Positions 22,492 to 60,173 of a stretch of DNA of 64,000 nucleotides are shown in pieces. Within the stretch, counting starts at the first letter, position 1, and each line of letters begins with the position of its first letter. The position numbers were made by a program, and so were the translations under genes. Origin of the DNA: SAR202 cluster bacterium (lineage in GTDB: Bacteria > Chloroflexota > Dehalococcoidia > Lucifugimonadales > OSU-TB39); assembly GCA_009392195.1 (NCBI GenBank), contig VFGY01000037.1, positions 124,001-188,000 of the forward strand. The letters run 5' to 3'. The notes under the pieces were generated by a model. It searched no databases, was not told the origin of the DNA, and saw only the letters and a list, made by a program, of their open reading frames with translations.

Positions 22492-23373
22492 TTGAGTAAA
22501 CTTTCAACCAAATTAAAATCCGGAAAATTCGCAGTAACATGTGAACTAAATCCTCCCAAAGGCACTGATTTAGAAAAACTATTCAAAAAAGCCGATATGT
22601 TAAAAGACCGAGTAGTAGCCATCAACATTACAGATTCGGCAGGTTCGAATATGACTATGGCACCTATTGCAGTATCACATTTTTTAAACCATAGAGGGAT
22701 TGAACCAATATTGCAAATCACAGGTAGGGATAGAAATAGGATAGCAATCCAGGCAGATTTGATTGCTGCTAGTGCTCTAGGAATAACCAATATTTTGACA
22801 ATGAGCGGTGACCCACCTCAACACGGGGATCATCCAGAAGCTAAACCTGTGTTTGACCTGAATTCAACACAAGTATTAGATGCAATGAAGTCTATGCAGG
22901 GAGGAAAAGATCTCGGGGAAAACGTTCTAGAAGGTAATCCCGAATTCTTTAGAGGCGCTGTAGTAAATCCTGGAGCCAAAGACCTTGAGAGTGAATTTGC
23001 CAAAATGGAAGAAAAGGTTTCAAGCGGAGCTCAATTCTTCCAAACACAGGCGATATTTGAACCTGATGCTTTGGAAGAATTTATGGTAACAGCAAAAAAG
23101 TTTGATGTTCCAATTCTTGCCGGAATAATTGTTCTTAAATCCACCAAAATGGCAAATTATTTGAACTCATACCTGCCAGGAATATCAATACCAGATAATA
23201 TTATTAAAAGTCTTGATTTAAACGATAGAGAAGCCATCAAAAAAGAAAGTGTTTCCATCACTTCAAATATCATAAAGGAAATTCAAGGAATGTGTGACGG
23301 GGTACATGTTATGGCTATCGGGTGGGAAAATACAATTCCTGATATCCTCGACCAGTCAAATATAAGAAATTAA
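22492..23373 (+). CDS. Methylenetetrahydrofolate reductase-like protein
   Basis: 293 residues, MTHFR TIM barrel. It starts KFAVTCELNPPKGTDLEKL (the catalytic Glu in CELNPP), then ITDSAGSNMTMAP, QITGRDRNRIAIQADL, LTMSGDPP, and SSGAQFFQTQAIFEP. It makes 5-methyl-THF from methylene-THF, the methyl donor that the corrinoid operon at 37-41 kb could use. TTG start at 22492-22494 with GGAG upstream (in ATCGGAGAAATTAACC). First of a run with acpS, nnr and ubiE/menG. Confidence 0.93.
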   Translation: MSKLSTKLKSGKFAVTCELNPPKGTDLEKLFKKADMLKDRVVAINITDSAGSNMTMAPIAVSHFLNHRGIEPILQITGRDRNRIAIQADLIAASALGITNILTMSGDPPQHGDHPEAKPVFDLNSTQVLDAMKSMQGGKDLGENVLEGNPEFFRGAVVNPGAKDLESEFAKMEEKVSSGAQFFQTQAIFEPDALEEFMVTAKKFDVPILAGIIVLKSTKMANYLNSYLPGISIPDNIIKSLDLNDREAIKKESVSITSNIIKEIQGMCDGVHVMAIGWENTIPDILDQSNIRN

Positions 23374-33888: not shown

Positions 33889-34890
33889 TTACTTAATCTT
33901 GGCTCTCAAATTATCTGCTTCCAACAATCCAATATTAACTATATTTTCGGGTATTTTGCCAACCAAAACGTTCCCAACCTGACCCGCCGCTCGTTGTTCT
34001 AGTTCAAGTACAGCTTCCTGCGAAAAAAATGCGGTGTGAGGTGTCACTATAACGTTTTGATTTTTGATTAACCTATGATTTGTATCAGGTTTTATATCAA
34101 CCAAAACATCTACTCCTGCTCCAGCAATAGTTTGCGAGTTTAATGCTTCATGTAAAGCATCTTCATCAATTAACCCTCCTCGAGCACAGTTAATAAGAAA
34201 TGCATCATTTCTCATCATTTTGAATTGTTCATTGCCAAACATATTTTCAGTAGCAGGTATAAGTGGAGAATGTAAAGTAACAAAATGCGACTCAGCCAAT
34301 AAATCGTCTAGTTCAACTTTTTTAACGCCAAATTGCTTCATAAAATCAGATTCAATCATTGGGTCAAAAGATAAAACATCTAATCCAAAGGATTGTGCTT
34401 TTTCAGCTACCATCCGGCCTATCCTGCCAAAACCGACAATTCCTAATGTTTTACCCCTTAACCTCATTATGCGCATACCTAACCCAGCATTACCCCAACC
34501 TGATAATTTAGTATCATTATTATGCAAAACTATTTTCCTATTCCATGCCAATAATAAGCCAATTACGTGGTCAGACACTTCATCTACACAATAGTCCGGC
34601 ACATATGTAACAAGTATGCCCTGCCTAGTTGCCTCTTGCACATCAATGTTATCAACACCGACTCCAAATCTACCTATTACCTTACAATTTTTAGCTGACT
34701 TAACAACATTATCTGTAACCTTGGCAAAACAAGTTAAAATCCCGTCAACTTCCTTGGCCAAATCTATTAAAGTATCCTCATTTCCATCAGGAGCAACTAT
34801 AAGATCAATGCCATGTTGGGCCAACACTTTCTTTTCTGGTTCCGTCGAAGGCCATACATAATCTGTTATCAGTACTTTTTTTGTTGGCAT
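33889..34890 (-). CDS. D-2-hydroxyacid dehydrogenase family protein
   Basis: About 333 residues from the ATG at 34888-34890 (GAGG seven bases upstream; a GTG two codons earlier is adjacent to GAGG, too close). Domains: substrate-binding IVAPDGNEDTL... and NAD-binding GIVGFGRIGRMVAEKAQ. Catalytic Arg is in CARGGLIDE and His in TPHTAFFSQEA. The expected Glu (as in the DVFxxEP loop of SerA) is replaced: the loop reads VDVLVDIKPDT. Last gene of the corrinoid operon; it may reduce or oxidise a product of demethylation. Confidence 0.85.
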   Translation of the reverse strand: MPTKKVLITDYVWPSTEPEKKVLAQHGIDLIVAPDGNEDTLIDLAKEVDGILTCFAKVTDNVVKSAKNCKVIGRFGVGVDNIDVQEATRQGILVTYVPDYCVDEVSDHVIGLLLAWNRKIVLHNNDTKLSGWGNAGLGMRIMRLRGKTLGIVGFGRIGRMVAEKAQSFGLDVLSFDPMIESDFMKQFGVKKVELDDLLAESHFVTLHSPLIPATENMFGNEQFKMMRNDAFLINCARGGLIDEDALHEALNSQTIAGAGVDVLVDIKPDTNHRLIKNQNVIVTPHTAFFSQEAVLELEQRAAGQVGNVLVGKIPENIVNIGLLEADNLRAKIK

Positions 34891-34918
34891 ATTCACACCT
34901 CATTATTAATTATCATAC

Positions 34919-36532
34919 CTACATAATCATCGGGTTAAATTGACACCCATCTACAAATAACTCAAAAAAATCTTCCGTTGTTTCAAGTTCAATGTGTTCT
35001 ATATTGTTACATATTTCTTCTATTTGCGATCTTAATCGACCTGAAACCAGCATCTGACTAGCTCCTTGAAGAGCTGTATTGCCAACCCTATGGATATTTT
35101 CAAGTCTTACATTCGCAATAAACCCAATTTCAATAGCATTTTTGATATCTAAATAATTCCCAAATCCACCCGCGATGTACATGTTTGAAACATCTTCAGG
35201 GATTATTCCATATTCTCTAAGAACTATCTTTTGACCACAATAATTTGCAGCTTTTGCCTGTGCTAATGCACTGATATCGCTTCGTGACAAAGCAAGATCA
35301 TATTCGGGTGCAATAATAAATTCATCCAGTCCTTTTTCCAACACTCCCAAGTAATTCATTTTACCCGCGTTTTTGAGTTCAGCCAAAAGATCTATCAATC
35401 CTGAACCGCAAATACCTGTCGGATTTACTCCTGATATAGTTTTATATTTGAGGATATCCCTTTCAAACTGAACGTGCTCTATTGCACCATCATAAGCAGG
35501 CATACCATATTTAATTTCTCCCCCCTCAAAAGCCGGGCCAGCAGGACAAGAAGCAGCAATCATTCTATCTTTGTTTCCCACAACAACTTCTGTATTTGTC
35601 CCAACATCAACTAACATAGATATCTGTTCATTGTTACCCATTCCAACGGCAAGCAAATCAGCTGCTACATCTGACCCAACATGGCAACCTATCAAAGGTC
35701 CTCCATATACATTCGCATCAGGAAACACTCGCAAACCAATTTGTTTAGCTTTAGTATTTAATGCCGTAGTTTTAACTTTGTTTTGATTAAATTCAATCTC
35801 AATTTTTGATTTGTAAGGCTTTTCTCCTATACTAGCTACGTCTAGCCCAAAAAATAGATCTCTCATGGTAGCATTACCAACTACTACTACTTCATAAATA
35901 CACCTTCTGTGAAATTTCAACTGCCTGCTCATTAATCCTATTTCAAAATTTATAGCTGAAATCATTACTTTTTGTAATTCACCTTGATATTCAGATGTAT
36001 CATACGAAATCCTATTCATCACGTCACTCCCACCAAATTTTTGAGGGTTTTCAAAAGACGTGATGTATTTAACTTCTCCAGTTTCTAAATCCAGTAGATT
36101 CATTACAACTGTAGTAGTTCCAATATCTATAGCCAACCCATACATAACACCCTTGAATTTATCTATTAATTTGCCTTCATAATATACTTTTCCATCATAC
36201 ATTTTAGTCAAAGCATCAAGTTCTAGCCGTTTTTGGGAAGACTCAACCAATATTTTAGGTTGCCTGCGAAGTACATTAAATTGTACTTCGGCATCAATAT
36301 CATCTATATATGCCTGACACGCCAACCGAAATCCTTGCGTTAGAAAAGATTCGGCTGAAGTAGGTGTATTCAAAGAAGAAATGCCTCTTTTCACCTCTAC
36401 TATACATTCATGACATTTTCCATTACGCCCACATGAGGTAGGTACGCGAACATTCAATATATCAGCGTATTCAAATAATGTTTTATTCGAAACAGATTCT
36501 AATTTTTGGTCGCCATAATTTACAGGAGACAT
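34919..36532 (-). CDS. RACo-type reactivator of corrinoid protein (2Fe-2S + ASKHA)
   Basis: 537 residues. A plant-type ferredoxin domain has Cys at 34, 40, 43 and 72 (PTSCGRNGKCHECIVEV...LAC), then a linker and an actin-like ATPase domain starting GLAIDIGTTTVVMNLLD, with VDVGTNTEVV, CPAGPAFEGGEI, GICGSGLIDLLAE and IAGGFGNYL. Such proteins use ATP and a low-potential electron to reduce Co(II) back to Co(I) in methyl-transfer corrinoid proteins. Its place after the corrinoid gene supports that role. ATG 36530-36532. Confidence 0.92.
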   Translation of the reverse strand: MSPVNYGDQKLESVSNKTLFEYADILNVRVPTSCGRNGKCHECIVEVKRGISSLNTPTSAESFLTQGFRLACQAYIDDIDAEVQFNVLRRQPKILVESSQKRLELDALTKMYDGKVYYEGKLIDKFKGVMYGLAIDIGTTTVVMNLLDLETGEVKYITSFENPQKFGGSDVMNRISYDTSEYQGELQKVMISAINFEIGLMSRQLKFHRRCIYEVVVVGNATMRDLFFGLDVASIGEKPYKSKIEIEFNQNKVKTTALNTKAKQIGLRVFPDANVYGGPLIGCHVGSDVAADLLAVGMGNNEQISMLVDVGTNTEVVVGNKDRMIAASCPAGPAFEGGEIKYGMPAYDGAIEHVQFERDILKYKTISGVNPTGICGSGLIDLLAELKNAGKMNYLGVLEKGLDEFIIAPEYDLALSRSDISALAQAKAANYCGQKIVLREYGIIPEDVSNMYIAGGFGNYLDIKNAIEIGFIANVRLENIHRVGNTALQGASQMLVSGRLRSQIEEICNNIEHIELETTEDFFELFVDGCQFNPMIM

Positions 36533-36908: not shown

Positions 36909-37646
36909 TTATTCTTGTAAAGCTAATGTTTTCGCAATCTCCACACAATCAATTGCATCTTTACCATAACCATCAGCTCCCATATCGTCAGCAAAATCTT
37001 GAGTAACTGGTGCACCACCTACCATAATCTTCACTTCCTCCCTCATGCCTTCATCTTCAAAAGCTTGTATGACTCTTCCCATATTAGGCATAGTGGTTGT
37101 AAGCAAAGCCGACATACCTAACACGTGAGCTTCATGTTCCTGAACAGCATCTATGAAATCTTCTGGCTTAGTGTCAACTCCTAAATCGTGTACTATAAAT
37201 CCGGCCCCTCTCATCATCATGATGCATAAGTTTTTCCCGATATCATGCAAATCACCTTTTACAGTGCCCATAATCACCGTACCTACAGGCGGTATATCTG
37301 ATTCTGAAAGAATCGGTTCTATATGCGCCATACCAGCTTTCATAGCTCTTGCAGAAATAAGAACTTCAGGAACAAAAATAATATTATCCCTGAACTTTAT
37401 TCCTACAATAGCCATCCCCGCAATTAAACCATCATCCATGACAGTATTAGCAGTAAATCCTGCGTCTAGTGCTTTAGAAGTAAGTTGATCTACTTCCTTA
37501 TCATTCCCTGTTATCAACGCATAAGCTATTTCCTGCATCAAAGGCTCTGTTTGTTCATACATTTCTTGAATGTGTTTTAATTCGGAAGGATTGGCAATAT
37601 GCTTCATCTCTTGCAACACACCTTCATTTACTATCGGCATCTTCAA
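36909..37646 (-). CDS. Corrinoid-binding methyltransferase protein (MtaC/MtbC/MtgC-like)
   Basis: 245 residues. The N-terminal four-helix cap domain contains the cobalamin-capping FVPEVLISARAM; the Rossmann-like domain carries the base-off/His-on motif DxHxxG (D132, H134, G137 in VKGDLHDIGKNL) plus SALLTTTM and VGGAPV. It carries a methyl group on cobalt between donor and acceptor enzymes. Downstream of the pterin methyltransferase, upstream of the reactivator. The donor cannot be named from this protein. Confidence 0.95.
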   Translation of the reverse strand: MKMPIVNEGVLQEMKHIANPSELKHIQEMYEQTEPLMQEIAYALITGNDKEVDQLTSKALDAGFTANTVMDDGLIAGMAIVGIKFRDNIIFVPEVLISARAMKAGMAHIEPILSESDIPPVGTVIMGTVKGDLHDIGKNLCIMMMRGAGFIVHDLGVDTKPEDFIDAVQEHEAHVLGMSALLTTTMPNMGRVIQAFEDEGMREEVKIMVGGAPVTQDFADDMGADGYGKDAIDCVEIAKTLALQE

Positions 37647-37718
37647 ACTCCAAATGTAAATCTAAATTTTTAAAATACCATTATACTGAACTCTTAGTAA
37701 ATAGTAACGCAAATAGGC

Positions 37719-38741
37719 TTATTGAAGCCTTCCATCTCTATAGGCCTGTAGATAATTGACACAAAATTCATCCTTTCCGGTCAACATATCTATAGCCAGA
37801 CTAACTTTTTCGGAATGTGTATCAATGTTATACACTTCTTCCAACTTTATTTGTATTGGATCTATTAATCCTGAATCAATCCCTGCATCAATACCTAAGT
37901 GTATAAAAGCCTGATTAATCAATTTCCTCATAGGCATTCCAAATGAAACATTGCTAAGACCCATTCCAATATGCAATTGGCTTCCATATTCTTTCCGTAA
38001 TTGTCTTACCGCATTGAAATAATGATTCCCATATTGAGAATTTACTGAGATTGGAAATACAATTGCATCTAAATAAATTTCTTCTAGGGAAAATCCAATC
38101 CGAACCAATTCATCCAATATTTTTTTTGCGTTTTCTACGCGGTCATCTTCATCTTCGGGCATACCTGTTTCACTAGTTGCCATTGCAATAACATTTGCTT
38201 TATATTCTAACGCCATCTCAAATACTTCAGGGCGTTCAAATGCTACTGAGTTTATTAAAGGCGGAACACTGTTTCTTTTATATGCTTTCAACCCTGATTC
38301 TATAATATCGGAATTAGATGAATCTATACTGATGGGCACAGAGGAAACATGTTGAGCAATCTCCATCGTACGAGCCATACAATTTTTCTGTATTTCTAGA
38401 TCATAATGCACTTCATCCACATTAATATCAATATAATTCGCCCCTGCTTTAATTTGCCTGTAAACAGCGTTTTGAATATATTGTTCTCCTTCCAATCTTG
38501 CATCGTCATCATTACTTATCAAATTAGTCATTGCTATAAGAAAATGTTTAACTTGCCCTTGCTGGTAAGGTTGGGTTTCTTTAAACCATTCCGGGACTTT
38601 CATAAATTTTTGTTCACCAGAGTCATCCTTGTAGCTTACAGCTTCAAATCCTTCGTCAGTTTTAACCACTCTTTTACCACTTGAACGAAACACTCTAGTA
38701 GCATGAATATTCTCGCCTACAATTATAAATTTGTCCGACAT
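37719..38741 (-). CDS. Pterin-binding methyltransferase (MtrH/MtvA-like)
   Basis: 340 residues. The fold is the TIM barrel of methyl-THF:corrinoid methyltransferases and of MetH's second module: opening IIVGENIHATRVF, NYIDINVDEVHYD, VPISIDSSNSDIIESGLKA, INSVAF, and LHIGMGLSNVSFGMP, where Asn/Asp line the pterin pocket. It would transfer a methyl between the corrinoid protein and THF in either direction. 45 nt after the UroD-like gene. ATG 38739-38741. Confidence 0.92.
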   Translation of the reverse strand: MSDKFIIVGENIHATRVFRSSGKRVVKTDEGFEAVSYKDDSGEQKFMKVPEWFKETQPYQQGQVKHFLIAMTNLISNDDDARLEGEQYIQNAVYRQIKAGANYIDINVDEVHYDLEIQKNCMARTMEIAQHVSSVPISIDSSNSDIIESGLKAYKRNSVPPLINSVAFERPEVFEMALEYKANVIAMATSETGMPEDEDDRVENAKKILDELVRIGFSLEEIYLDAIVFPISVNSQYGNHYFNAVRQLRKEYGSQLHIGMGLSNVSFGMPMRKLINQAFIHLGIDAGIDSGLIDPIQIKLEEVYNIDTHSEKVSLAIDMLTGKDEFCVNYLQAYRDGRLQ

Positions 38742-38786
38742 ATTTCTAATGTTTCTCCATTTATTTTTTGGAAGGTTGAATTATTT

Positions 38787-39827
38787 CTAGATTGATAAAT
38801 TTTCATCAGTCCAATCTTGTACCGCTTTTGGTATTTCAAGTAAATTTTCCAACTTGGTGGCTAATGGGATGGCGCATTCAGGAGCAATTAATGGAATCCC
38901 GGCATCCAAACATTTATAAACCTCCTCTCTAACCTCCTGAGGCCCTTTACTATACAAAGTAACTGGGTTATTAACATTCCCTACAAGCTGTATCCTGCCA
39001 TCTACTATCTCCATCGCTTTTGCCGGATCATTTCTAGAGTCAAAATGAAAAGCTGCCATTTTATTTTGTGCTATATAATCCATCCTGTCTAAAGTATAAC
39101 CACAAATATGCAATATAAGTGGCACTTTTAAATCCTCGACTGCTTCCTGATGTATATCTAGCAAAAACTTTCTATAATATTCGCCACTTACCAAATCTCC
39201 GGTTGCATGATCTGGGTATGTTAACACATCAGCTCCTGCATCTATTTGAGCCTGTCCAAATAAAACCGATATCTCTTTCAATTTATTTAAACATTTAATA
39301 GTTAGATCAGGATCATCAATTGACATAAGCAAAAATGTTTCTACCCCGAACACATGATACGCAAGAGTCCATGGCCCCATGGTTTTTCCAATGATGGCAA
39401 CCTCATTTCCAAATTCTTGCTTAAGTATTTTTATGGACTCTATAATTGCCAAATTATCTTGATGTTGCAAAAAATTATCTGGAACATGAATATCTTCAAC
39501 CGATTTCCAAATAGGATTACTCATCCTTACAGTAGGCCAATTGTCTTTCTGTTCCCATTGCATTTCACAACCCAACGCTGAAGATTCCTGGATAATCGTA
39601 AAATATGGTGCTATAGAATCAAACCCTAATTCCGTATATCCTGTAGCAGCTAACCTTGCATTAAGTTCAGGATCTCGACATGCATCTGGGAAAGGTGCAT
39701 CTACTAAATCCATAAGTTCAACTGTTGCTACATTCGTCGGATTCGAGATAGGCGTGCGGTCTACAGGCAATCCATTCAAAGCATTCATAACTCTTTCTCT
39801 AGGTGTCATTTTTTTAGTTGCAACCAT
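38787..39827 (-). CDS. UroD-family corrinoid methyltransferase (MtaA/VdmB-like)
   Basis: 346 residues, uroporphyrinogen-decarboxylase fold, but with the zinc site of the methyltransferase branch: H240 and C242 in LILHICGYTLD and C318 in IAPECAIP (H-x-C...C). This separates it from true UroD in haem synthesis. In other organisms relatives methylate coenzyme M or take methyl from methoxy aromatics. It may be the substrate-specific enzyme of the cluster (methyl donor unknown). No MttB-type trimethylamine or betaine methyltransferase is present. Confidence 0.88.
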   Translation of the reverse strand: MVATKKMTPRERVMNALNGLPVDRTPISNPTNVATVELMDLVDAPFPDACRDPELNARLAATGYTELGFDSIAPYFTIIQESSALGCEMQWEQKDNWPTVRMSNPIWKSVEDIHVPDNFLQHQDNLAIIESIKILKQEFGNEVAIIGKTMGPWTLAYHVFGVETFLLMSIDDPDLTIKCLNKLKEISVLFGQAQIDAGADVLTYPDHATGDLVSGEYYRKFLLDIHQEAVEDLKVPLILHICGYTLDRMDYIAQNKMAAFHFDSRNDPAKAMEIVDGRIQLVGNVNNPVTLYSKGPQEVREEVYKCLDAGIPLIAPECAIPLATKLENLLEIPKAVQDWTDENLSI

Positions 39828-39869
39828 TGATGTCCTCCTGAATTTCCTAAAATAATTGGCGTGAGATTT

Positions 39870-40544
39870 TTATTCTTGGGTTGAAAACCCAAGAGTGCTT
39901 GTGGTCATTTGGCCTCGCATAGAGTCCGCATCTAACATGTCCTGAGTCCCTGTTATATTTCGAGCGTAAGGGAGAATAATACGAACTAATTCATCCCTTT
40001 GATATCCTCCTTTAAACATCACTTTAGTATTATCTATTTTTTCCATATCTCCATATCTAATAAACCCTTGAACTGTTGCTCGTTTCCGCAATTCTGGGTT
40101 TTTAAATTCCCCTTCAGTGGTTACTTCATAAATTCTTTTATCATTTTCGTCATAAGAATTGATAATCAATGTCAGAGGAGATCGAAGATCTTTAATGGTA
40201 ATCGGGCCGTCTGGATGCCTATAATTAGAAGGTTTTTCTACAGCTAGCTTAATTAAAAATTTGACTGGCCTATCATACAGTTCATCATTGGGAAATTTAA
40301 CTTGGTTATTTGTATCTGACACAGGCACCATCCCACCCAAATTAACTAATTGATCTCTTATCTCACTTATTCTATTAGAAACGCCAGGCACCTTACTAAA
40401 TGTCCAAACAGTGTAAACATTATTTTTTTCATACAAACCCACACTGATATCCTTAAAATGAGGATCAATCGATATTAGCTCTGAGCATTTTCCAATCCTA
40501 TCTAAGATATCTTTCACATTTTCTTTATTATCTATTTGATTCAT
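39870..40544 (-). CDS. Unknown protein of the corrinoid operon
   Basis: 224 residues, no signal peptide or membrane segment. Predicted alpha-plus-beta: an N-terminal mixed part with HFKDISVGLYEKNNVYTVWTFSK, a central beta-rich part (DRPVKFLIKLAVEKP, SPLTLIINSYDENDK, IYEVTTEG), and a C-terminal stretch RDELVRIILPYARNITGTQDMLDADSMRG. No motif I can name. It sits between the homocysteine- and UroD-type methyltransferases (20 and 42 nt), so it is most likely a partner subunit. Start ATG 40542-40544. Confidence 0.75.
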   Translation of the reverse strand: MNQIDNKENVKDILDRIGKCSELISIDPHFKDISVGLYEKNNVYTVWTFSKVPGVSNRISEIRDQLVNLGGMVPVSDTNNQVKFPNDELYDRPVKFLIKLAVEKPSNYRHPDGPITIKDLRSPLTLIINSYDENDKRIYEVTTEGEFKNPELRKRATVQGFIRYGDMEKIDNTKVMFKGGYQRDELVRIILPYARNITGTQDMLDADSMRGQMTTSTLGFSTQE

Positions 40545-40564
40545 TTTATTGCCTTTTTCTTGAT

Positions 40565-41464
40565 TTATATTTTACCCCTCGGATAACTTGAGACAACAGA
40601 GTTTATAGCAGAAATATGACTAGGTGTTGTACCACAACATCCTCCAATTATATTTATTTTTGCATCAATCAATTCTTTAAACTTTTCAGACATGATTTCG
40701 GGAGTTTCAGGATAAACTATCCTCCCTTTTATGATTTTAGGAAATCCTGCATTGCTGTGTATAACCAAGGGCCCATCATCAACATTTCTCATTATTTTTG
40801 CTATTTTAACCATATTGTCTATCCCATTTCCACAATTTGCCCCAACTGCATCTGCTCCTTTTCTTCGAATTTCCCGAACTGCCACTTCGGGAGTCACTCC
40901 CATCATCGTGAAAAACCCCCTAGGTCCTAAATCAAATGTCATCGTAGCCATCACAACTAAATTCGTGTTGAGTTTTGCAGCTTCTACAGCTAAAATAGCT
41001 TCTTCTAAAGATGTCATAGTTTCTATGATTATTGCATCAGCTCCACCTTTCTCTAAAGCTTTAACCTGTTCTTTAAACCCTGCAAACATTTCCTTTTCAC
41101 TTATAGAACCGAGAGGTTGCAAAAATTCGCCTGTAGGCCCAACAGAACCTAAAACAAATTTATCACTTGGGCAAGCGCTCTTAGCATGTTCTGCTGCTTT
41201 TATGTTAATCCTCTCCAATTCGTTCCTTAATCCATATTTAGACAACATGAAAGGGTTGCCGCCAAATGAATTTGTTAAAACTAAATCCGCACCATTAATA
41301 AAATAGTCGGTTGCCATTTTAACAATAAGTTCAGGATTGGTTAAATTCAGGTGCTCTGGACACCCTCCTGGCTCCAACCCATTACTTTGCAAATAGGTGC
41401 CTGTAGCGCCATCAGATACAAGAGTTTCGCCACTTTCAATTCTTTTTAACAAATTCATTCCCAA
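40565..41464 (-). CDS. Homocysteine S-methyltransferase family protein
   Basis: 299 residues, homologous to the N-terminal module of MetH, BHMT and MmuM. Zinc/homocysteine site: C211 in VGANCGNG, and C276-C277 in IIGGCCGTTP; the opening LVSDGATGTYLQSNGLEPGG and TNSFGGNPFML are typical. With the separate corrinoid and pterin modules it could form methionine, or it could be a donor-side S-methyltransferase. 7 nt after the small upstream gene. MNLL two codons in is an alternative start. Confidence 0.92.
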   Translation of the reverse strand: MGMNLLKRIESGETLVSDGATGTYLQSNGLEPGGCPEHLNLTNPELIVKMATDYFINGADLVLTNSFGGNPFMLSKYGLRNELERINIKAAEHAKSACPSDKFVLGSVGPTGEFLQPLGSISEKEMFAGFKEQVKALEKGGADAIIIETMTSLEEAILAVEAAKLNTNLVVMATMTFDLGPRGFFTMMGVTPEVAVREIRRKGADAVGANCGNGIDNMVKIAKIMRNVDDGPLVIHSNAGFPKIIKGRIVYPETPEIMSEKFKELIDAKINIIGGCCGTTPSHISAINSVVSSYPRGKI

Positions 41465-41471
41465 GTTTTGC

Positions 41472-41831
41472 CTAATATTCTATCCAGTGGTCTATAGAAC
41501 CAGGTGTGGGTTTTCTGTTGCCTTGTTTCTGTAAATCTCTGATTTTAGACACAAAATCTCTAGGGAATTTATTGTTGAACAGGTTAACCTTATCTTGTAA
41601 CACACTATTTATTTCCCCTTGTGCTAAAGAGCTTTCACCCCACAAGAAACCATTTAAATAATCATCCGTCCCATAACTATTTTCAAACATCGCTATAGCG
41701 TCCACCCCTTCTTGGAATCTATCCTCTAGTTGGCATGATTTTTTATTTCCATCAGATTCAACTTCTACCTGTAACGGTATTTCTTTCCAATACAAAATCC
41801 GAACATTAACTTTTTCTAGTTTGTTTTTCAT
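41472..41831 (-). CDS. Small protein, 'virulence factor' (PF13769-like) family
   Basis: 119 residues. ILYWKEIPLQVEVES near the N-terminus, then CQLEDRFQEGVDAIAMF, matches my memory of the short 'Virulence_fact' family (pattern YW.dIPaqV...lp.RF..aiD..Am), often next to corrinoid methyltransferase genes. The C-terminal end FVSKIRDLQKQG is helical. It is the first gene of the operon, 7 nt before the homocysteine methyltransferase. The family match is by eye; function unknown. Confidence 0.6.
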   Translation of the reverse strand: MKNKLEKVNVRILYWKEIPLQVEVESDGNKKSCQLEDRFQEGVDAIAMFENSYGTDDYLNGFLWGESSLAQGEINSVLQDKVNLFNNKFPRDFVSKIRDLQKQGNRKPTPGSIDHWIEY

Positions 41832-58165: not shown

Positions 58166-58420
58166 TATATGTGAAGAAATACAGGCTGAGAAGGGGAGTA
58201 GTAAAGGATACAATTTACAGAGAGTTGGAACTAGTGAAACCCAGCATTATCCTTGAACTCGCCCCAGAGCTCCCTATTTGAACCAGATAAATCAAGTAAA
58301 GTAGGGCGGTTAGGCCCCGTAATAAGGCCAAGACAAGAGGTCGCTTAAAAATAGCGGCAATTTGGGTGGTACCGCGAGATTAACATGATCCCGTCCCGAA
58401 AGGACGGGTTTATTTTTTTT
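58166..58420 (+). promoter_or_regulatory. T-box riboswitch leader, leucine specifier, for ilvB operon
   Basis: Stem I: GGGG (58193-58196) with CCCC (58262-58265), AAGGATA with TATCCTT, the E-loop AGTAGTA opposite GAA-CTC-G. The specifier is CTC (58258-58260), a Leu codon. The distal AG-bulge AGAGAG is at 58218-58224. The T-box GGGTGGTACCGCG is at 58364-58376 with UGGU, whose last base fits the A discriminator of tRNA-Leu. The terminator (below) competes. Uncharged tRNA-Leu would let transcription into ilvB-ilvN-ilvC-leuA. About 80 nt before ilvB; the rest of 57973-58165 has no gene. Confidence 0.9.
58390..58420 (+). terminator. T-box terminator hairpin
   Basis: Stem CCCGTCC / GGACGGG (58390-58396, 58402-58408), loop CGAAA, then TTTATTTTTTTT. 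It forms when the T-box antiterminator is not stabilised by uncharged tRNA. Confidence 0.9.
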
Positions 58421-58466: not shown

Positions 58467-60173
58467 ATGAAACTTACAGGTGCTCAACTAGTTTGCGAAA
58501 GTTTAATGAAAGAGGGAGTTGATACCATATTCGGCTTGCCTGGCGGAGCTATATTGCCTCTTTACCAAACATTGCCTGAATATACTCAATTGAAGCATAT
58601 CTTGGTTCGCCACGAACAAGGAGCTGCTCATGCAGCAGATGGCTATGCAAGAGTAACAGGCAAAGCTGGTGTTGCATGGGCCACATCGGGTCCGGGAGCC
58701 ACTAACTTAATAACAGGTATTGCAACTGCACAAATGGATTCAGTACCCATGGTTGTTATTACCGGACAAGTATCTCGTGCCTCGATAGGTAGCGATGCCT
58801 TTCAGGAAACAGATACAACAGGAATTTCGTTACCAGTAACCAAACATAACTACTTGGTAATGGACGCAGCAGATATTCCAATGATAATAAAAGAAGCCTT
58901 TCATATTGCTACTACAGGACGACCCAGTCCAGTTCTTGTAGACATACCCAAAGATGTTTTTACAGAAGAAGTAGAATATCCCGATGGGCTTATATATCCA
59001 GAATCTCTTAACTTGCCCGGGTATAAACCTTCAGTTGCTGGAAATATTGGTCAAATCAAAAAAGCCGCTAAGCTAATAAATAAATCGGCTAAGCCCGTAA
59101 TTTTAGCCGGTCACGGGATTATTTTTTCTGGCGCATATAATGAACTTAAAACCCTTGCCGAAAAAGCCCAAATCCCGGTTATCACAACTCTTCTTGGAAT
59201 AAGTTCCTTCCCTGAGGACCATGTTTTAAGTGTTGGCATGCCTGGCATGCATGGAGTTGCTTACGCTAGCTTGGCCATAGAAAAAGCCGATCTTCTGATA
59301 GCTTTAGGCATGCGATTTGACGACAGAATCACCGGAAAACCAAGCGAGTTTGCCAAAGCATCTCGAAAAATACATGTCGATATAGACCCTTCTGAAATCG
59401 GGAAAAATGTTCCGGTTGACGTACCGATTGTTGGTGACATTAAAAACGTCTTAGAAAAACTTAACCAATATGTTGAATCAAATACCCATGTTGAATGGAT
59501 ACAAAATATTGAACAACTAAAATCAGACCACCCTTCACTAGAAATAAGGGAAACAGACAAATTACTGCCTCAATATATAATTCGAGAATTATCTGAAGCA
59601 ACTAAAGGTAAGGCAATAATGGTAACTGGGGTTGGCCAGCATCAAATGTGGGCAGCCCAACATTATACGTATACTGAACCTAGAAGTTGGATTACTTCTG
59701 GGGGCTCTGGGGCAATGGGCTACGAAGTTCCAGGAGCTATGGGGGCGCAAGTAGGAAACCCTGATAGAGTTGTATGGTCCATAGCGGGAGACGGCGGATT
59801 CCAGATGACCATGTCTGAACTCGCTACATTGGTGGAAAATAAAATCCCTGTTAAATTTGCTATTATTAACAACAACGTTTTAGGCATGGTTAGGCAGTGG
59901 CAAGAATTCTTTTACGATAAATCATACGTCGCTACTACTTATACCAACAATCCTGATTTCGTCAAACTCGCAGAAGCTTTTGGAATGCTTGGAATAAGAG
60001 TAACTTCCAAAAATCAGGTTAGGTCTTCCATAGAGAAAGCAATGGAACATGATGGTCCTGCCTTAATCGACTTCGTGGTTGAAGAAGAGGAAAATGTATA
60101 TCCAATGATTCCAGCTGGCCAAACTATTGAAAATCTCATAGAGGAACCAGCCAATGAGGAAATCAAAACATGA
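58467..60173 (+). CDS. ilvB: Acetolactate synthase large subunit
   Basis: 568 residues. Condenses two pyruvates, or pyruvate with 2-oxobutyrate, on thiamine diphosphate. GLPGGAILPLYQ at the N-terminus, RHEQGAAHAADGYARVTGK (catalytic Glu), a FAD-binding middle domain, and the ThDP motif GDGGFQMTMSELATLVENKIPVK ... NNNVLGMVRQWQ. ATG with AAGGAG about 11 nt upstream. Overlaps ilvN by 4 nt and is controlled by the leucine T-box. Confidence 0.98.
   Translation: MKLTGAQLVCESLMKEGVDTIFGLPGGAILPLYQTLPEYTQLKHILVRHEQGAAHAADGYARVTGKAGVAWATSGPGATNLITGIATAQMDSVPMVVITGQVSRASIGSDAFQETDTTGISLPVTKHNYLVMDAADIPMIIKEAFHIATTGRPSPVLVDIPKDVFTEEVEYPDGLIYPESLNLPGYKPSVAGNIGQIKKAAKLINKSAKPVILAGHGIIFSGAYNELKTLAEKAQIPVITTLLGISSFPEDHVLSVGMPGMHGVAYASLAIEKADLLIALGMRFDDRITGKPSEFAKASRKIHVDIDPSEIGKNVPVDVPIVGDIKNVLEKLNQYVESNTHVEWIQNIEQLKSDHPSLEIRETDKLLPQYIIRELSEATKGKAIMVTGVGQHQMWAAQHYTYTEPRSWITSGGSGAMGYEVPGAMGAQVGNPDRVVWSIAGDGGFQMTMSELATLVENKIPVKFAIINNNVLGMVRQWQEFFYDKSYVATTYTNNPDFVKLAEAFGMLGIRVTSKNQVRSSIEKAMEHDGPALIDFVVEEEENVYPMIPAGQTIENLIEEPANEEIKT

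Follow-up and report, generated by a model that had tools for sequence, protein, structure and literature searches.

Putative multi-protein cobalamin-dependent methionine synthase encoded by an operon of a SAR202 cluster bacterium

Introduction

A stretch of 64,000 nucleotides from a SAR202 cluster bacterium (assembly GCA_009392195.1, contig VFGY01000037.1, positions 124,001 to 188,000; hereafter the window, with positions counted from its first letter) carries on its minus strand, at 41831–33889, an operon with the genes Vir, HMT (homocysteine S-methyltransferase), U224, MtaA-like, MtgD, MtgC, RACo and 2-hydroxyacid dehydrogenase (Table 1). On the basis of sequence comparison, the operon is read here as probably encoding a cobalamin-dependent methionine synthase made up of several proteins, of the MtgC-D-E type, which would be the methionine synthase of this organism (rough probability 0.82). 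Few bacterial groups of the dark ocean are as abundant as SAR202; in the literature searched, its route to methionine is not described.

Results

Genes and motifs: A preliminary description, made from the letters of the window, had placed a corrinoid protein, an MtrH-like protein, a homocysteine methyltransferase and an MTHFR at exactly the positions found here; their reading frames and domains were confirmed, and the RACo-type ATPase that it invoked is present. Its span, 36909–41464, holds the three modules but also encloses the MtaA-like gene and U224, which it did not name, and the operon extends beyond it to Vir and the dehydrogenase. Catalytic motifs are intact: MtgC, DxHxxG (as DLHDIG); HMT, zinc cysteines (GANC and GGCCG); MtgD, GLSNVSFG, the best NCBIfam match of this protein being methyltetrahydrofolate:corrinoid/Fe-S protein methyltransferase; RACo, CX5CX2C (as CGRNGKCHEC), with 33% identity to an ASKHA protein of Sinorhizobium meliloti; MtaA-like, HICG and APEC. 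MTHFR, 37% identical to that of the S. meliloti mtg cluster, is the likely source of 5-methyltetrahydrofolate.

Table 1: Genes of the operon and the MTHFR gene in the window.
Gene	Position	Strand	Length (amino acids)	Assignment and domains
Vir	41472–41831	−	119	PF13769 "virulence factor" domain (Pfam E 8.6e-12); first gene of the operon
HMT	40565–41464	−	299	MtgE-like homocysteine S-methyltransferase; PF02574 (E 4.5e-66)
U224	39870–40544	−	224	undescribed family; two homologous halves
MtaA-like	38787–39827	−	346	zinc methyltransferase of MtaA/CmuA subfamily, URO-D fold; HxC...C zinc motif
MtgD	37719–38741	−	340	MtgD/MtrH-like methyltetrahydrofolate:corrinoid methyltransferase; Pterin_bind PF00809
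MtgC	36909–37646	−	245	MtgC-like corrinoid methyl carrier; B12-binding cap and domain, PF02607 + PF02310
RACo	34919–36532	−	537	RACo/RamA-like ATP-dependent corrinoid reductive activator; Fer2 + Raco_middle + RACo_C_ter
PGDH	33889–34896	−	335	2-hydroxyacid (phosphoglycerate-type) dehydrogenase; PF02826/PF00389; last gene of the operon
MTHFR	22492–23373	+		PF02219; opposite strand, about 10.5 kb past the last gene of the operon

Conservation among relatives: The comparison covered 40 regions taken from related genomes, together with 80 named loci. The order Vir–HMT–U224–MtaA–(MtgD)–MtgC–(MTHFR)–RACo–PGDH recurs with small insertions and, because it is repeated in tens of genomes, lies far beyond chance. 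Among the loci whose sequence exceeds 20 kb (42 in all), the genes were found as follows: HMT, 42; Vir, 41; MtaA, 40; MtgC, 37; RACo, 33; PGDH, 29; MtgD, 18; MTHFR, 7; MtaA and U224 are more constant members of the operon than MtgD. At L063, L072, L132, L135, L140 and L151, MTHFR is itself a gene of the operon and separates MtgC from RACo; MtgD, when not located between MtaA and MtgC, mostly adjoins MTHFR and an MTHFR_C-type protein, a layout shared with pSymB of S. meliloti and with a Paracoccus plasmid. The operon holds no recurrent substrate-specific transporter or enzyme at the loci of relatives compared, and the inserted genes that separate U224 from MtaA in large genomes (DUF4268, DUF433 and MOSC proteins) were uninformative as to a substrate.

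Other methionine synthases in the genome: The genome, of SAR202-type Chloroflexota, comprises 2.05 Mb in 67 contigs, with a completeness of 97.9% and a contamination of 9.2%; it was searched with profile models, one protein family at a time. The check for a full metH or metE that the preliminary description had called for gave neither. The metH model (TIGR02082) yielded single-module pieces only, of at most 163 bits against a cut-off of 1010.85; the three best matches are the operon's own genes, and the remaining ones are two B12-binding proteins, one of them short and the other with a helix-turn-helix (contig 23), and an HMT paralogue (contig 39). The genome gave no match to the last third of this model (from about position 922), i.e., to a PF02965-type reactivation domain, and no second methyl-carrying corrinoid protein, full MetE or separate MetE N-terminal partner; the N-terminal model matched only two of three PF01717 proteins. 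These three (339–365 amino acids; contigs 24, 40 and 60) have the size of a core MetE, lie below every NCBIfam cut-off and retain the HxC...E...C zinc ligands; the contig-24 protein matches archaeal MetE-catalytic models. MtgB (PF06253, MTTB family; M. acetivorans control positive) and DUF1638 (PF07796; control positive) gave 0 matches in the genome, and a glycine betaine demethylase of the MtgB type was rejected on this ground; MesX gave none, its control being likewise silent. MetY was found on contig 40 (TIGR01326, 655 bits, cut-off 495), followed by a gene for a MetA-like acyltransferase; with these, homocysteine can probably be made by the organism.

The contig-23 protein (L003:1222–2103, 293 amino acids) combines a B12-binding region with a C-terminal helix-turn-helix-like region and is possibly a B12-dependent light or cobalamin sensor.

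Distribution in the order: 197 draft and metagenome-assembled genomes of the order (39 families) were each scored for MetH, U224, MtgD and MetE-type proteins; the MetE and split-MetE classes were assigned by bit score, frame length and adjacency, the split class including a partial contig match (G012) and one match without listed neighbour (G003). MetH was found in 74 genomes, MtgD in 86, and both in none; the MetE class (full or split) occurs in 29, one of them also with MtgD and two with MetH, and 11 genomes have neither MtgD nor MetH nor the MetE class. The overlap of MtgD with MetH-or-MetE is a single genome (Fisher p 4e-42, uncorrected for kinship); at the family level, 15 families have MtgD, 14 have MetH and none is shared (p 1.4e-4). 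An overlooked MtgD in the MetH genomes is unlikely, because the MtgD query found there just the MetH pterin domain, at ca. 25–33% identity. U224 occurs in 103 of the 197 genomes, among them 81 of the 86 with MtgD and 19 with MetH, in which the operon is without MtgD. Since MtgD replaces MetH so cleanly, the MtgD system is best read as occupying the methionine-synthase slot and as part of such an enzyme.

Full MetE (about 500 bits) occurs in other genomes of the order, as do adjacent pairs of core-size MetE-like genes that resemble split MetE; the order would so use at least four types of methionine synthase, almost one per genome. In several MetH genomes of one family (f39) the MetH protein reaches no further than its B12 domain, the reactivation domain (model positions 910–1181) being encoded by a separate adjoining gene.

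The distribution bears on two other explanations. The operon might serve catabolic demethylation only: MtaA would demethylate an S-methyl (or other) substrate and load MtgC, from which MtgD would pass the methyl to tetrahydrofolate for oxidation, with HMT as a side branch and methionine made elsewhere or imported. The constancy of MtaA and U224 and the U224 operons of the 19 MetH genomes without MtgD are in keeping with this, MtgD acts in both directions in Ruegeria (PMC12478193) and MTHFR could run oxidatively; however, the genome has no other methionine synthase and no member of the MtgB family, no recurrent transporter or substrate-specific enzyme accompanies the operon, and perfect exclusion of MtgD and MetH is unexpected for a purely catabolic gene, and this explanation is regarded as improbable. 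Slighter still are the chances that a core-MetE-like protein, one of the three, makes the methionine and that the operon has another function. Conserved zinc ligands and the archaeal matches of the contig-24 protein speak for such an activity; the three proteins belong, however, to the sub-cut-off weak class (ca. 80–140 bits) that is found in MetH genomes too, compared with 250–512 bits for the MetE/split-MetE class of other members of the order, they have neither an N-terminal partner nor a MesX match (control silent), and Phaeobacter inhibens, which has a core-MetE-like homologue, is nevertheless auxotrophic on mtgCDE mutation (PMC12478193).

MtaA-like enzyme: The protein scores above the NCBIfam cut-offs of PRK06252 (250.8 vs 235.4 bits) and TIGR01463 (260.1 vs 244 bits); its best match in the PDB is 4ay7, methylcobalamin:coenzyme M methyltransferase, with whose HICG and Cys its own HICG and late Cys align. 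Identity across 23 loci is 62–81%, and the zinc ligands are conserved. Because it belongs to the methanogen MtaA/CmuA subfamily and has these ligands, it should exchange methyl between MtgC and a thiol, as donor or acceptor; retention of MtaA and U224 in MetH-bearing relatives without MtgD suggests a second, thiol-linked role.

There is about an even chance that the operon combines a methionine synthase with a methyl input, in which MtaA would charge MtgC with the methyl of a methylated thiol and either HMT (to methionine) or MtgD (to tetrahydrofolate) would discharge it; this extends the methionine-synthase reading, and the two probabilities overlap. The analogy with MtgB-C-D-E of Ruegeria pomeroyi (PMC12478193), the Zn-thiolate motif of thiol methyltransferases in MtaA and the retention of MtaA, MtgC and HMT in the MtgD-less operons of MetH genomes argue for the combination; against it, MtaA could act on the acceptor side instead. 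Catabolic demethylation had been set as a rival to methionine synthesis in the preliminary description. The methionine-synthase role is supported; a catabolic or second methyl input may accompany it, and in R. pomeroyi the same kind of corrinoid hub also carries out glycine betaine demethylation (PMC12478193).

U224: The protein belongs to no Pfam or NCBIfam family and has no relative by sequence in the PDB; its predicted fold (AlphaFold2 model, pLDDT 90) resembles no structure in the PDB at E up to 0.001. The two halves are homologous (hhalign probability 93.5, E 2e-7). Named relatives are overwhelmingly from Chloroflexota/SAR202/Dehalococcoidia, many of them oceanic; U224 was also found in Candidatus Entotheonella and in single bins labelled Acidobacteria and SAR324, and it adjoins the homocysteine methyltransferase gene across SAR202 (as in the window; L018–L046) and in Entotheonella. 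Two proposals were rejected: a disguised DUF1638 (hhalign probability 0.1, not alignable) and, in view of similar predicted topology, a relative of Vir, for which sequence comparison gives no support.

Vir: The fold gave no PDB match at E up to 0.001. In Terrarubrum flagellatum PF13769 (N-terminal) is fused to RACo (C-terminal) in one protein of 760 amino acids (L198:11257–13539), beside mtgC and DUF1638; in S. meliloti Vir adjoins metF2-mtgD-RACo. PF13769 is probably a corrinoid-activation partner and not a virulence factor; Vir probably acts in the re-reduction of cobalt, because Terrarubrum fuses its domain to RACo beside mtgC.

Further feature of the window: A T-box leader (RF00230, 121.7 bits) lies at 58179–58401, upstream of an open reading frame of 568 amino acids (58467–60173).

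Discussion

Proposed function: From gene identities, motifs, operon conservation, the absence of MetH and MetE and the exclusion pattern, all observed in the sequences, we infer each catalytic step, the substrate and direction of MtaA and the roles of Vir and U224; steps 1–4 follow family chemistry and the genetics of Phaeobacter and Ruegeria. (1) 5-Methyltetrahydrofolate would be made by MTHFR; (2) MtgD would move its methyl to Co(I) on MtgC; (3) HMT would form methionine by methylating zinc-bound homocysteine with the methyl of methyl-Co(III); (4) RACo, probably with Vir, would reduce accidentally oxidised Co(II) to Co(I), standing in for the reactivation domain of MetH, which depends on S-adenosylmethionine (SAM). 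The MtaA-like enzyme would provide a second methyl exchange of MtgC, with a thiol or thioether, in the place that MtgB holds for glycine betaine in Ruegeria; U224 would be an accessory subunit, perhaps in place of the alphaproteobacterial DUF1638 protein.

Relatives that have MetH or MetE but no MtgD retain the core Vir–HMT–U224–MtaA–MtgC–RACo. A tentative and rather doubtful extension is that this core is a folate-independent methionine synthase or methionine-recycling system, to which the gain of MtgD gave a folate feed and so allowed the loss of MetH in many SAR202 lineages; MtaA would then demethylate a methylated thiol or similar sulfur compound, MtgC would carry the methyl, HMT would pass it to homocysteine and U224 would be a new obligatory subunit.

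Several observations weigh against the assignment as methionine synthase. MtaA and U224 being more constant than MtgD, methionine synthesis may not be the sole or original role of the operon; the three PF01717 proteins and the HMT paralogue could methylate homocysteine otherwise; in a draft assembly of this completeness and contamination an unassembled metH is possible, for this genome alone; and neither the window nor seven relatives gave, in the vicinity of the operon, a SAM or cobalamin riboswitch at the gathering threshold, so that a riboswitch was dropped as a sign of methionine regulation.

Significance: Some 44% of the order's sampled genomes (86/197) would rely on a B12-dependent enzyme that escapes standard annotation, because each of its parts scores below the metH cut-off; auxotrophy calls and estimates of B12 demand for these bacteria could be wrong. 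The operon also offers a testable handle on the action of DUF1638-like accessory proteins, on the link of PF13769 to corrinoid activation and on a possible direct entry of methylated sulfur compounds into methionine in marine bacteria.

Origin of the modules: HMT has 38% identity with Bmt of S. meliloti, at 177 bits, and 28% with SAR202 MetH, at 97 bits; MtgC, 49% to MtgC of S. meliloti and Paracoccus (197–199 bits) vs 30% to SAR202 MetH (92 bits); MtgD, 137 bits to the S. meliloti Mtg protein vs 83 bits to SAR202 MetH. Because all three score higher on alphaproteobacterial Mtg proteins than on MetH, the operon is, as judged by these scores, a parallel assembly and not a broken-up MetH; a parallel origin has likewise been argued for Roseobacter MtgC (PMC12478193). 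The "exploded" MetH of the preliminary description thus stands, on comparative grounds, as to the role filled by separate modules but not as to their origin.

Comparison with known systems: Fused MetH (TIGR02082) has the same three chemical modules, which in SAR202 are separate proteins, with RACo replacing the SAM-dependent reactivation. The Type 1 mlp clusters of anaerobes (PMC10418091) share an MtaA-type methyltransferase, a corrinoid protein and a RACE activator, as well as a proposed methyl-sulfur role and a methionine link; they have, however, two or three Mlps (at least Mlp2 and Mlp3), no folate methyltransferase in the cluster and anaerobic hosts only, whereas the operon of the window has a single URO-D/MtaA gene together with HMT, MtgD, U224 and Vir.

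Closer are the split enzymes of Alphaproteobacteria. The three-part MetH of P. inhibens with its RamA-like protein is genetically proven, the mutants being rescued by methionine (PMC5764234); shared with it are separate PF02574, PF00809 and PF02607/PF02310 proteins, no PF02965, a ferredoxin-RACo (DUF4445) activator and no other functional methionine synthase, but its genes are scattered and work with DUF1638, while in SAR202 they form one operon without DUF1638 and with the extra MtaA-like protein and U224. With MtgBCDE of R. pomeroyi and S. meliloti (PMC12478193), where mtgC and mtgD mutants of R. pomeroyi are methionine auxotrophs, the operon shares the MtgC hub with MtgD and MtgE, the neighbours MTHFR, Vir, MTHFR_C and RACo, and the absence, in most cases, of MetH where Mtg is present; it differs in its Chloroflexota host, in the MtaA-like zinc enzyme of a genome without MtgB (PF06253) and in an exclusion of MtgD and MetH that is complete in the sample of the order. 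A literature search on SAR202 methionine or cobalamin/methyltransferase gave no report of this system, subscription papers and supplements lying outside the search.

Separate HMT, pterin and B12 proteins, a RACo activator, no PF02965-type domain, Mtg-like modules and no other methionine synthase in the genome (the assembly being not closed and holding three weak MetE-like paralogues) were all found here. A split MetH with a RamA-like activator is a principle already known, and the SAR202 operon belongs to that kind; new in it is that, with neither MtgB nor DUF1638, it has a conserved MtaA-like zinc methyltransferase and U224 instead.

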